This document shows, piece by piece, positions 41,566 through 63,770 of a stretch of 64,000 nt of DNA. The stretch is from Lota lota. Its lineage: Eukaryota > Chordata > Actinopteri > Gadiformes > Lotidae. Position numbers and translations under genes: made by a program. Each line of letters begins with the position of its first letter. Positions within the stretch are counted from its first letter, which is position 1. The notes beneath the pieces were generated by a model. The model ran no database searches and was not told where the DNA came from. It saw nothing but the letters and a program-made list of their open reading frames with translations. The stretch spans positions 1,412,720 through 1,476,719 of the forward strand of contig JACYXH010000278.1 in assembly GCA_026745465.1 (NCBI GenBank), written 5' to 3'.

Positions 41566-41635
41566 CTGGAGGTGATCTATAAAATGACATCTGCCAAACC
41601 AGTGAAAGTGTTTGTCTTCATACTGCCTGATCCAG
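41566..41635 (+). ncRNA. C/D-box snoRNA-like unit, SNORD41-like (5'UTR intron)
   Basis: Terminal stem CTGGA (41566-41570) with TCCAG (41631-41635); C-box-like GTGATCT; C'-like AGTGAAA; D box CTGA at 41627-41630. The D-guide CTTCATACTGC pairs with 28S rRNA UCAGUACGAAUA at 9 of 12 positions. The fifth nucleotide from the D box lies opposite the U that human SNORD41 modifies (28S U4276). Human TNPO2 hosts SNORD41. It ends 86 nt before the acceptor, a typical snoRNA spacing. The imperfect C box lowers confidence. Confidence 0.5.
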
Positions 41636-41722
41636 CCATTGAAGATGCAGGACGAATTCTACTTATTCCTCATTTTTAAGGAAGGAATTTAAAAGTTTAG
41701 TAATGCGTGTTTGTGTTCTAGG

Positions 41723-62700: not shown

Positions 62701-63770
62701 CTGTGGTCTTGTTGCCGATATTGGGCCTCCGCCCCTAGCTCGGTCTCTTCTCCATAATGTATGACGTTGTGCCATTTTTCCAGCTGCATCGGGTGTTGTG
62801 TGGATTGCTGTGTGCATCCATGTATTTTTGATCCAAGCTATGTGTGAATCAACCCCTCTTTTAGGGTGCACATTGCATTTGTGGACAGAGCATGGGTCCC
62901 ATATTTATTTTAAGGAATTCTGGATTTGAGAATTGATTAGGGGTGTGGGTGTGTCATTATTTCTGTTAGATTAGTGATGGTGTGTATGATATCCCTGCAG
63001 GAAGTGATGTCAAGGAGCAGACAGGGGAGTCATCAGGTGAGCTTAGGGTGTGATAAACCAACCAATCATTGTCCTAGTCAACGTATAGGCAGAGAGAAGA
63101 CCACTTGAATTTCTGCAAGATTACTGGCTTTTTTTTTTTTCACTGAGCTGATCAGTGCCCTTAAAAACTAGAACACATCATTATTTGTCTTTTAGTAGTA
63201 TAGGCATTTCTGTTCATTTCAGTTCATCATACCATGGACTGTTATACACCCTTTTTTTTTCTCTGGTTACAAACAAATACCACCAAGTTTACTGTCTGGA
63301 TATGATTCTCCCAGCTCACTGATTAAACATGAGACATTTTGTTCCTTAATATTTCTGATCCAGATGCTATTCATGTTCTTTGTTTGTTTATTTAGCTCAA
63401 TCAGTCACTAGTTTTTGGAGCCTTGGGATAGAAGATGGGAGTCATATAAAATAGATTAAAGCATTTACTTTATTATTTATTCATTCAACTAATTGGCTCA
63501 TCTATGTGGATATCAAAAATCGTGATGACAATCTTATTGGGGCATCCTCTGAATGTGATTTTGTTTTCCCCCTCCCTTCCGTTTAAAAAAAAAGCCTACC
63601 GGCTTTAAAAGTATCCCAGTTGATGCAATGTGTTATCCGAGGCTTGACAGGCTTCCTTCTGTGTGTGTTTGTAGGTGCTGAGATGCAGCCCTATGTAGGC
63701 GTGGTACTGCCACACCTGGTGGAAATCATAAACAGACCCAACACGCCTAAAACCCTGCTGGAAAATACCG
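41723..63770 (+). CDS. tnpo2: Transportin-2 (karyopherin beta-2B), 3' end outside window
   Basis: HEAT-repeat import receptor for PY-NLS cargo such as hnRNPs. Exons: 41723-41821, 42412-42487, 43076-43225, 46442-46548, 47892-48025, 48295-48376, 48535-48657, 55994-56112, 56768-56828, 57486-57660, 58153-58305, 59634-59859, 59995-60166, 60331-60417, 60508-60615, 60902-61060, 62159-62246, 62519-62617, (63001-63036 optional), 63675-63770. 771 codons without the optional exon. The start [20 protein letters not shown] and the [18 protein letters not shown] segment favour TNPO2 over TNPO1. The acidic loop that releases cargo on RanGTP binding is near residues 345-372 ([20 protein letters not shown]). 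About 120 C-terminal residues are missing to the right. The intron after 48376 has a GC donor (GAG/GCGAGT). Introns host repeated snoRNA-like units, so the gene doubles as an snoRNA host. Confidence 0.95.
42235..42360 (+). mobile_element. tRNA-derived SINE fragment in tnpo2 intron 1
   Basis: B-box-like GTTTGAGCCCCACC, then GCATTCTTGAGCTAGACAACTAACCAC and a tail with GCCTCTGCTAAATAGCTAAA. It shares the GCATTCTTGAG body motif with 16660-16800. It ends about 50 nt before the next tnpo2 acceptor. Confidence 0.6.
42841..42914 (+). ncRNA. Family A C/D snoRNA-like copy A1 (intron 2), C box degraded
   Basis: CCCTGG at 42841-42846 pairs with CCAGGG at 42909-42914. Box C reads ATGACGA instead of ATGATGA (one change in the kink-turn core). 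The antisense element AAACCCAGCTCA, D'-like TTGA, C'-like AATGAAA and D box CTGA (42904-42907) are intact. The C-box change suggests a decaying or weak copy. Confidence 0.65.
43545..43618 (+). ncRNA. Family A C/D snoRNA-like copy A2 (intron 3), altered guide and stem
   Basis: C box ATGATGA (43553-43559) and D box CTGA (43608-43611) are intact. The antisense element reads ATACCCAGCTCA and the 3' stem arm is CCTGGG rather than CCAGGG, so the terminal stem is weakened. Probably a degenerating copy. Confidence 0.65.
43670..44725 (+). repeat. ~1-kb interspersed repeat in tnpo2 intron 3 (inverted partner at 61150-62110)
   Basis: Shares, in reverse-complement order with intron 16, GTGATTGATTGAATA, TTTCTATATGTGTACCAACT, GGAATGGTTG and AATCGTAGGAATGGCGCACT. 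The short ORFs inside (about 80 aa) are not conserved between the two copies, so the element is non-coding or long dead. Confidence 0.8.
44810..45830 (+). repeat. Segmental duplication source, partner in intron 4 (about 47180-47640)
   Basis: Blocks such as TCAAACTTGCGCTAA, CCCTTCTCGCCTTGG, GCCTGAACAATAAAG, ATGTTAACGC and GCATAAGC-GTGTATACA recur in the same order and orientation in intron 4, with deletions. Confidence 0.7.
46585..46705 (+). repeat. Intron 4 tandem duplication, copy 1 (partner at 47674-47791)
   Basis: ATTGGAACGGCAGAG, AGAGTGGCCACTTTTAATGC, GTCAGTTGCAGCA and GATGAAGTCTGACATTTAGA recur ~1.09 kb downstream. The snoRNA-like copy A3 follows this copy directly, and the truncated A4 follows the other. 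Confidence 0.85.
46706..46779 (+). ncRNA. Family A C/D snoRNA-like copy A3 (intron 4)
   Basis: Stem CCCTGG (46706-46711) with CCAGGG (46774-46779). C box ATGATGA, antisense AAACCCAGCTCA, D'-like TTGA, C'-like AATGAAA and D box CTGA are all present. Structurally complete. Confidence 0.75.
47334..47409. repeat. Perfect 28-bp inverted repeat with 20-nt loop
   Basis: Arm 47334-47361 (CATGCCTGAACAATAAAGCA then CGTAAAAA) is the exact reverse complement of 47382-47409, with loop 47362-47381. In the tnpo2 pre-mRNA this would be a long unbroken hairpin. The related sequence in intron 3 (near 44980) has only one arm, so the second arm arose by local inverted duplication. Confidence 0.9.
47792..47822 (+). 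pseudogene. Truncated family A snoRNA-like copy A4
   Basis: Only the 3' half remains (TTCATGTTCCTTATTTTCTGATCCAGGG); the C box and antisense element are missing. It lies after the duplicated block 47674-47791, as expected if the duplication carried a copy that later lost its 5' half. Confidence 0.75.
48079..48145 (+). ncRNA. C/D-box snoRNA-like unit, SNORD41-like (intron 5)
   Basis: Stem TGGAT (48079-48083) with ATCCA (48141-48145); C-box-like GTGATGC; D' box CTGA at 48106-48109; C'-like AATGAAG; D box CTGA at 48138-48141. The D-guide TACTCATACTGT resembles the unit at 41566. Intron 5 is only 269 nt. Complementarity to the 28S U4276 region is weaker than for the first unit. Confidence 0.5.
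48377..48534 (+). other. tnpo2: GC-AG intron of tnpo2
   Basis: The exon ends ...FIE with GAG/GCGAGT and the next exon starts after TTCAG with [12 protein letters not shown] is the only donor that keeps the HLFALA-type alignment and phase 0. Flanking bases (AG/GCGAGT) fit the strong consensus usual for GC donors. Confidence 0.8.
48699..49674. mobile_element. hAT-like element remnant in tnpo2 intron 7
   Basis: Imperfect terminal inverted repeats: TAGGGCCCTGTGATTTCC at the left end and, reversed, GTAGAACCCTATGAAATCC at the right end (about 49655-49674). The inside contains a broken BED-finger/CGGBP1-like frame. Left-end sequence GATGCGGATATCGCGGACGG is typical of this group in fish as I recall it. 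Confidence 0.6.
48985..49345 (+). pseudogene. Broken CGGBP1-like (hAT-related) coding remnant
   Basis: Conceptual translation reads [16 protein letters not shown], a zinc-finger Cys-x2-Cys start, with [11 protein letters not shown]. After in-frame stops it continues as [20 protein letters not shown] and [15 protein letters not shown], the pattern of CGGBP1-like proteins abundant in fish. Stops and frame breaks show it is dead; the intact 68-codon piece (49130-49336) is a fragment. Confidence 0.6.
53690..54730 (+). repeat. Tandem array with embedded (TG)n expansions
   Basis: About seven copies of a unit with ACTATCATTATCTTCATACT, AATATATAA-ACTTT and TTGATCAAAGTAAACCTAAA, each joined by TG repeats of different length. 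One interval has expanded to a 192-nt pure TG run (54422-54613). Confidence 0.85.
54422..54613. repeat. Giant (TG)96 microsatellite
   Basis: 192 nt of uninterrupted TG in tnpo2 intron 7, the longest simple repeat in the window. It may be length-polymorphic or assembly-compressed. Confidence 0.98.
55792..55864 (+). ncRNA. Family A C/D snoRNA-like copy A5 (intron 7)
   Basis: Stem CCCTGG (55792-55797) with CCAGGG (55859-55864), C box ATGATGA, antisense AAACCCAGCTCA, D'-like TTGA, C' CGATGAA (closer to consensus than in the other copies) and D box CTGA. It ends 129 nt before the next tnpo2 acceptor AG. Confidence 0.8.
56205..56277 (+). ncRNA. Family A C/D snoRNA-like copy A6 (intron 8)
   Basis: Stem CCCTGG (56205-56210) with CCAGGG (56272-56277), C box GTGATGA, antisense AAACCCAGCTCA, D'-like TTGA, C'-like AATGAAA, D box CTGA. 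Structurally complete. Confidence 0.8.
56904..56968 (+). ncRNA. C/D-box snoRNA-like unit (intron 9)
   Basis: Terminal stem TGGGT (56904-56908) with ATCCA (56964-56968, one G-U pair). Consensus C box GTGATGA (56909-56915), D'-like CTGA (56937-56940) and D box CTGA (56961-56964). The D-guide CTACTCATACTTT is related to the SNORD41-like units at 41566 and 48079 but has drifted. The C' box is unclear. Confidence 0.5.
57776..57848 (+). ncRNA. Family A C/D snoRNA-like copy A7 (intron 10)
   Basis: Stem CCCTGG (57776-57781) with CCAGGG (57843-57848). C box ATGATGA, antisense AAACCCAGCTCA, D'-like TTGA, C'-like AATGAAA, D box CTGA. Identical to copy A8 across the unit. Confidence 0.82.
58619..58691 (+). 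ncRNA. Family A C/D snoRNA-like copy A8 (intron 11)
   Basis: Stem CCCTGG (58619-58624) with CCAGGG (58686-58691); same boxes and antisense element as A7. The identity of two copies in different introns implies recent duplication, conversion or selection. Confidence 0.82.
61150..62110 (-). repeat. ~1-kb interspersed repeat in tnpo2 intron 16, inverted relative to 43670-44725
   Basis: Reverse-complement copy of the intron 3 repeat. Fills almost the whole intron between exons 60902-61060 and 62159-62246. Confidence 0.8.
63001..63036 (+). other. tnpo2: Candidate 36-nt cassette exon of tnpo2
   Basis: Preceded by TATCCCTGCAG and followed by the donor CAG/GTGAGC. It starts and ends in the same phase as the flanking exons (phase 1 in, phase 1 out), adding 12 residues, [12 protein letters not shown], between MQM and GAEMQPY. 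Skipping it also keeps frame and gives the usual transportin sequence. That both ends are strong splice sites argues it is a real optional exon. Confidence 0.6.
63295..63364 (+). ncRNA. Divergent family A C/D snoRNA-like copy A9 (intron 18 region)
   Basis: Seven-pair terminal stem TCTGGAT/ATCCAGA. The antisense element is shortened to CCCAGCTCA but is followed by a perfect D' box CTGA, which confirms where D' lies in the other copies (TTGA there). D box CTGA at 63355-63358. The C box is ATGATTC, imperfect. Compensatory change of both stem arms from CCCTGG/CCAGGG argues for retained structure. Confidence 0.65.

Follow-up and report, generated by a model that had tools for sequence, protein, structure and literature searches.

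The introns of a Lota lota gene taken as tnpo2 harbor a repeated unit of ~73 nt that probably represents a family of intron-encoded box C/D small nucleolar RNA (snoRNA) genes, locally multiplied within this one gene and predicted to guide methylation of the large subunit (LSU) ribosomal RNA (rRNA) cytidine equivalent to yeast 25S C2948. The window, i.e., the whole stretch of DNA analyzed, comprises 64,000 nucleotides of contig JACYXH010000278.1 (C278:1412720-1476719), and the genome to which it belongs holds 575,287,041 bases in 867 contigs. By architecture, the units are box C/D snoRNAs. They are read as such a family and not as a transposon because of (i) this architecture, (ii) the terminal stem, (iii) the sense placement in introns, (iv) the restriction to one gene, (v) a D′ guide that is in register, and (vi) conservation restricted to the unit in two pairs of copies. 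An original prediction, made from the letters of the window, had likewise called the unit an RNA gene rather than a transposon, and its choice is supported by the architecture, one-gene restriction, in-register guide, and two-pair constraint. The likely function, a D′ guide directed to the LSU C2948 equivalent, had been missed.

In the window, the unit is present as eight full-length copies and one truncated copy, all in sense orientation across eight tnpo2 introns and at the nine positions originally proposed, which both a sequence check and the gene model bear out. Copies are designated here by their first position, and introns are numbered by the modelled coding exons. Copy 1 (42841..42914, intron 2) retains a 7-bp stem and a 12-bp guide and has a mutated C box, ATGACGA. 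Copy 2 (43545..43618, intron 3) has intact boxes, six of seven stem pairs, and a 10-bp guide. Copy 3 (46706..46779, intron 4) is intact, and copy 4 (47792..47822), in the same intron, is truncated to a 3′ half with the D box only. Copies 5 (55792..55864, intron 7), 6 (56205..56277, intron 8), 7 (57776..57848, intron 10), and 8 (58619..58691, intron 11) are all intact, the last two being identical. Copy 9 (63295..63364, intron 18) is divergent, with a 9-bp guide, a canonical CTGA as its D′ box, the C box ATGATTC, and the stem TCTGGA/TCCAGA. The C box RTGATGA first described thus holds for most copies and fails in 42841 and 63295, and the stem CCCTGG/CCAGGG does not extend to 63295.

The count of nine is correct for the window and incomplete for the gene, which runs on. 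Just beyond the window, two further divergent copies lie in sense orientation between host exons, at L010:338-414 (E 1e-7) and L010:1117-1189 (E 9.2e-8), which brings the total to 11 copies, 10 of them full-length, in 10 tnpo2 introns. On the other side, a covariance model search detected no unit in 9720 bases upstream (best match E 6.8). All 11 copies are sense to tnpo2, corresponding to a two-sided p of ~0.001 if they were independent, which duplicated copies are not.

The original prediction held that some copies are intact and others decaying, and the distribution of conserved features agrees. When intactness is defined as retention of the C box, D′, D, the 7-bp stem, and the 12-bp guide, five of the 11 copies qualify (46706, 55792, 56205, 57776, and 58619). 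The C and D boxes are both exact in these five and in 43545, and one or both are altered or missing in the remaining five; the damage affects the C or D box in each of the divergent copies 63295, L010:338, and L010:1117. The terminal stem forms seven of seven pairs in seven copies and six of seven in three, the truncated copy having no 5′ arm. By reading, unscored, one stem pair of 63295 is changed on both sides, from C-G to T-A. The D′ box is TTGA in 7/8 full-length window copies, and the CTGA of 63295 occupies the same register. The guide core CCAGCTCA followed by YTGA is preserved in all 10 full-length copies, and the D-side guide varies between copy subtypes. In the best folds of seven window copies, the terminal stem is formed in every case and a six-pair D′/C′ hairpin in six.

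These features occur in the window in excess of shuffled sequence. The pattern CCCTGG-N(1-6)-TGATGA has six window matches, all on the forward strand, with 0.04 expected from dinucleotide-preserving shuffles. The guide-plus-D′ core, allowing two mismatches, has 13 window matches versus 2.83 expected, and all eight exact ones are units. A check suggested at the outset, a covariance model built from the copies themselves, was carried out with seven copies (model R2) and with 63295 withheld; the withheld copy was recovered at 63294-63365 with an E value of 1.1e-7. Beyond it and the training copies, the sole match in the 64-kb window at E ≤ 1 is the reverse strand of 56205 (E 0.2). Training copies score 99.1-107.9 bits and divergent copies 42.9-43.9 bits, and the model missed the truncated copy 47792 in the same window.

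A transposable-element or dispersed-repeat origin of the unit, by several insertions into tnpo2, would draw on the multiple copies and on the abundance of repeats in the introns of this gene. This possibility was addressed by searching the whole genome. The 73-nt unit yields seven matches from seven candidates, all seven in tnpo2, and a divergent-copy query yields two matches, 63295 itself and L010:338, again both in tnpo2. Because unit matches are confined to this gene genome-wide, the family is not a dispersed repeat. The genome-wide spread outside tnpo2 that had been named as a possible refutation was thus looked for and not found, within the sensitivity of the search. The 18-mer AAACCCAGCTCATTGAAA, allowing two mismatches, occurs at 81 places (49 forward and 32 reverse) versus 13 for a reversed control; all six exact places, and eight of the 81 overall, are tnpo2 units. 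Among the 73 off-locus places, 23 were examined (two on C270, one on C228, and 20 more including one on C94), and none is a unit; with 23 of the 73 covered, the excess over the control is only partly explained. Off locus, R2 scores reach at most 22.9 bits (E 0.00093 over 8420 searched bases), at a place with no C box within two mismatches and no CTGA in the next 72 bases, and none of the 20 places of the second set combines a C box (≤1 mismatch) with a downstream CTGA. With the tnpo2-only matches, the off-locus checks, and a sense orientation common to 11/11 copies, the transposable element was rejected as an extremely improbable source of the units. The guide core has two near-matches on the minus strand of C270, at C270:54000 and C270:56776, which are 2776 bases apart and have identical model scores of 17.7 bits; they may reflect the tandem duplication of some sequence that is not the snoRNA.

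The flanks of the copies bear on how the family arose. They had been described as all different, which is incorrect, as several copies have flanks in common. Copies 57776 and 58619 are identical over 73/73 positions of the unit, and their homologous 3′ flank agrees at 61/77 positions with eight additional gap columns (Fisher p 1e-5). Copies 56205 and 58619 agree at 71/73 positions in the unit and 52/63 in the homologous flank, again with eight gap columns (Fisher p 0.004). Since these common flanks diverge faster than the unit, local duplication plus constraint on the unit is suggested. The 5′ flank of the truncated copy 47792 (47664-47790) duplicates 46575-46701, with 127 bases at 91% identity, and the remnant carries another D-side subtype than 46706. 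Exchange between copies is therefore likely, because the flanks of 46706 and 47792 are alike yet their D-side subtypes differ.

The same duplications are compatible with a more passive history, in which a once-functional snoRNA was carried along with its intron and little function is retained beyond one or two copies. This history would account for the shared flanks, which imply duplication of more than the unit, and for the fact that the six copies outside the intact set show altered boxes, a weaker stem, a shorter guide, or truncation. It is nevertheless unlikely, as it leaves unaccounted for the two pairs in which the unit is better conserved than its own homologous flank and the retention of CCAGCTCA plus YTGA in every full-length copy, decayed ones included.

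The predicted target follows from the D′ guide, AAACCCAGCUCA, which is fully complementary to the LSU rRNA segment UGAGCUGGGUUU through 12 Watson-Crick pairs in 6/8 full-length window copies. The pairing is 10 and 9 bp in the other two and 9 and 8 bp in the downstream two. The duplex is flush with the D′ box, and the fifth base upstream of D′ is a G facing a C in 8/8 full-length window copies, the position singled out by the D+5 consensus rule (described in the accessible part of PMC8817022). A perfect 12-mer would be expected 0.0004 times in ~7.2 kb of rRNA. The LSU sequence was taken from a chimeric IMG/VR contig (L001) whose target region agrees with the consensus of Rfam LSU_rRNA_eukarya. 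As an observation on this contig itself, it is labelled viral, opens with eukaryotic LSU rRNA (~1-130), continues with unrelated sequence, and looks chimeric. Among 200 numbering offsets scanned, a single one fits the letters of seven published yeast sites (2921, 2922, 2923, 2944, 2946, 2948, and 2959), and under that sole fitting offset the target C is yeast 25S C2948. From the complementarity and the D+5 rule, we infer that the unit RNA would guide methylation of the C2948 equivalent in the peptidyl-transferase region.

An alternative is that the units are C/D snoRNAs that do not guide C2948 methylation, acting either as orphans (e.g., in tnpo2 splicing) or on the neighboring A (yeast A2946), as SNORD29 does. 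The non-canonical TTGA that serves as D′ in most full-length window copies would fit this alternative, as would a weak similarity to the SNORD29 model (best 25.4 bits versus a gathering score of 48). The two sites are also close: the published target of SNORD29 is the A two nucleotides upstream of the C2948 equivalent (in the part of PMC3511168 available), and a table in the accessible part of PMC2780460 assigns one Neurospora RNA to both C2948 and the SNORD29-type A site. SNORD29 thus resembles the units in targeting the same LSU stretch; in human numbering the cytidine would be 4525, reckoned from Am4523. This alternative is distinctly unlikely, given that the D′ box adjoins the duplex, that D+5 specifies the C in all eight full-length window copies, and that the divergent copy 63295 has the canonical CTGA at the same register. 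The SNORD29 guide has a D′ register that differs from that of the units. Membership in the SNORD29 family (RF00070) is likewise not indicated, as the six units listed score 20.7-25.4 bits, below the gathering score.

Several observations weigh against guide RNAs for C2948 as the identity of the units. Beyond the two significant pairs, the other flank pairs are short and non-significant: 43545/46706 (p 0.13 and 0.068), 42841/55792 (p 0.18), 43545/55792 (p 0.31), and 43545/56205 (p 0.57). An appearance of constraint could also arise from gene conversion restricted to the unit. The fold z-scores are modest, ranging from −3.19 to −0.47 for the seven window copies, and those of the downstream copies are −0.56 for L010:1117, which keeps the terminal stem, and −1.13 for L010:338, whose best fold (338-414) is without it. 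Vertebrate C/D snoRNAs typically lie ~50-80 nt from the 3′ splice site. Eight of the nine window copies are more than 120 nt from it, and the close one is the truncated copy 47792, which lies 67 nt away in the first gene model and 69 nt away with the refined exon start. The 73-nt genome search missed 4/11 known copies (three divergent and one truncated), so weak copies elsewhere are possible. Across the window, matches to Rfam families all stay below the respective gathering scores. The pairing was scored on the L001/Rfam LSU sequence rather than on Lota lota 28S, and complementarity is no guarantee of modification: some guide RNAs are reported to modify artificial but not endogenous rRNA, the examples in the accessible part of PMC8522698 being pseudouridine guides.

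The predicted target cytidine is assigned to box C/D RNAs in other organisms, as judged from the accessible portions of the published tables. Yeast snR69 is assigned to C2948, which is labelled PTC (peptidyl transferase center), with differing reported modification levels and the human position unmarked (PMC8307265). Yeast snR69 and Arabidopsis snoR69Y are assigned to the C2948 equivalent under older numbering, with no human entry (PMC3511168). Neurospora CD27 is assigned to it as well, the last column, taken to be human, showing a dash (PMC2780460), and Dictyostelium CD15 is placed there with dashes for human and Arabidopsis (PMC8817022); the Arabidopsis dash conflicts with the other tables. 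The equivalent position is Cm in three plants and yeast, and the human cell is blank (PMC11542601). In Xenopus, four 28S sites are described as not conserved in human, and position 3634 is not among them (PMC8797249); taking 3634 as the equivalent position assumes that human Am4571 equals Xenopus Am3680. Within these portions, the C2948-equivalent mark is given for yeast, plants, Dictyostelium, and, by assignment, Neurospora; it has no human entry and apparently no Xenopus one. The units share with snR69, snoR69Y, CD15, and CD27 the box C/D class and, by prediction, the LSU cytidine to which those RNAs are assigned, a comparison made by target only; they differ in that the fish gene is intronic, multi-copy, and confined to one vertebrate host. 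The common target may reflect convergence.

With respect to novelty, the original prediction knew of no such vertebrate family in TNPO2. The accessible literature on TNPO2, fish snoRNAs, and rRNA methylation contains no description of this family, with the zebrafish map (PMC7668251) outside that coverage; a somatic-specific 28S-Cm3916 mentioned in a review might be the same site. The claim is weaker than was implied, as a TNPO2-SNORD41 link and C/D snoRNAs with several copies in fish and frog are known. SNORD87 has four genes in zebrafish, four in Xenopus, and one in human (PMC3349704); it is likewise a single C/D snoRNA with several genes in fish and frog, and differs in its lower copy number and in its target, 28S G3723. 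Human TNPO2 and SNORD41 are given as one symbol in an expression table (PMC6261634), and one report describes a candidate human snoRNA within TNPO2 (PMC8482216), both as seen in the accessible parts of these papers. What is of interest is therefore the copy number, the confinement to one gene, and the predicted target of the family.

SNORD41 resembles the units in being of C/D type, in its pairing with TNPO2 in the human table, and in the presence of weak similar sites in the fish gene. As an identity for the units, SNORD41 (RF00588) was rejected, the five units listed scoring 21.2-25.1 bits versus a gathering score of 41. SNORD41 carries its guide at the D box and is directed to another target site, unlike the D′ guide of the units. 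Three weak SNORD41-like sites lie on the forward strand, at 41566..41635 upstream of the ATG exon (33.8 bits), 48078..48146 in intron 5 (26.9 bits), and 56903..56969 in intron 9 (26.9 bits), all below the same gathering score. Ahead of the D box, all three read TCATACT in place of the TCGTACT of the Rfam SNORD41 consensus. Their fold z-scores of −0.70, 0.73, and 0.06 leave structure unsupported, and they are possibly fish SNORD41, also multiplied or decaying. A genome-wide search for SNORD41 gave no match at E ≤ 0.001, an uninformative result, as just 63 of the 94173 candidates received a score and no control matched anywhere. Other sub-threshold C/D families in tnpo2 include snoU54 (34.0 of 35 bits) and SNORD103 (33.0 of 45 bits). 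The control region 1-41500 has no comparable C/D cluster among its 14 matches (E ≤ 10), which include one sno_ZL1 (17.2 bits) and four SCARNA7.

The host gene has 19 coding exons at 41722..63770 on the forward strand of the window and continues downstream, where the next 9981 bases contain the last tnpo2 exons and the stop codon, with an approximate splice phase for the tail exons. Joining the 19 modelled exons gives a stop-free open reading of 771 amino acids. The introns are GT-AG, with the sole exception of a GC donor (gcgagt) after exon end 48376 (48376/48377). Exon ends were adjusted by 1-2 bases after the first gene model, from which the intron assignments derive. The product aligns over residues 2-771 with Transportin-1 structures at up to 1518 bits, and a TNPO2 structure is not among the nine structure matches; the name tnpo2 is adopted from the original prediction and is provisional with respect to TNPO1. 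The introns hold other repeats. Segments 43695-44420 and 61467-62114, in two tnpo2 introns and the former near copy 43545, are inverted, diverged repeats with 69.5% identity over 742 columns. In the 7.3-kb intron 7, a region at ~53700-54615 contains, by eye, similar repeated segments followed by a long (TG)n microsatellite (~54422-54614).

Taken as C/D guide genes, the units suggest the following mechanism. Local duplication inside tnpo2 would multiply the intron-encoded genes. Once the intron is spliced, an RNA of ~73 nt would be delimited by the C/D kink-turn together with the 7-bp terminal stem. Its D′ antisense element would pair with LSU rRNA in the peptidyl-transferase region and direct fibrillarin to 2′-O-methylate the C2948-equivalent cytidine, as complementarity and the D+5 rule predict. 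Several copies probably sustain the RNA dose while others decay. Expression, processing, and methylation enter this scheme as predictions, built on the observed architecture, the register of the guide against conserved LSU rRNA, the restriction to one gene, and the constraint in two pairs.

These observations outline what appears to be a snoRNA family that stays below the gathering thresholds of Rfam 15. With its many copies of a single snoRNA, from intact to decayed, the host gene could serve studies of how snoRNAs arise, how their dose is set, and how they are lost. The prediction is specific: a 2′-O-methylation in the catalytic center of some fish ribosomes that is absent from human lists, as far as the accessible tables extend. 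A broader proposal, tentative and somewhat short of an even prospect, is that a fish lineage may use at least five intact, tnpo2-only copies to methylate the C2948 equivalent, having gained or retained this mark and adjusted its dose via gene multiplication.

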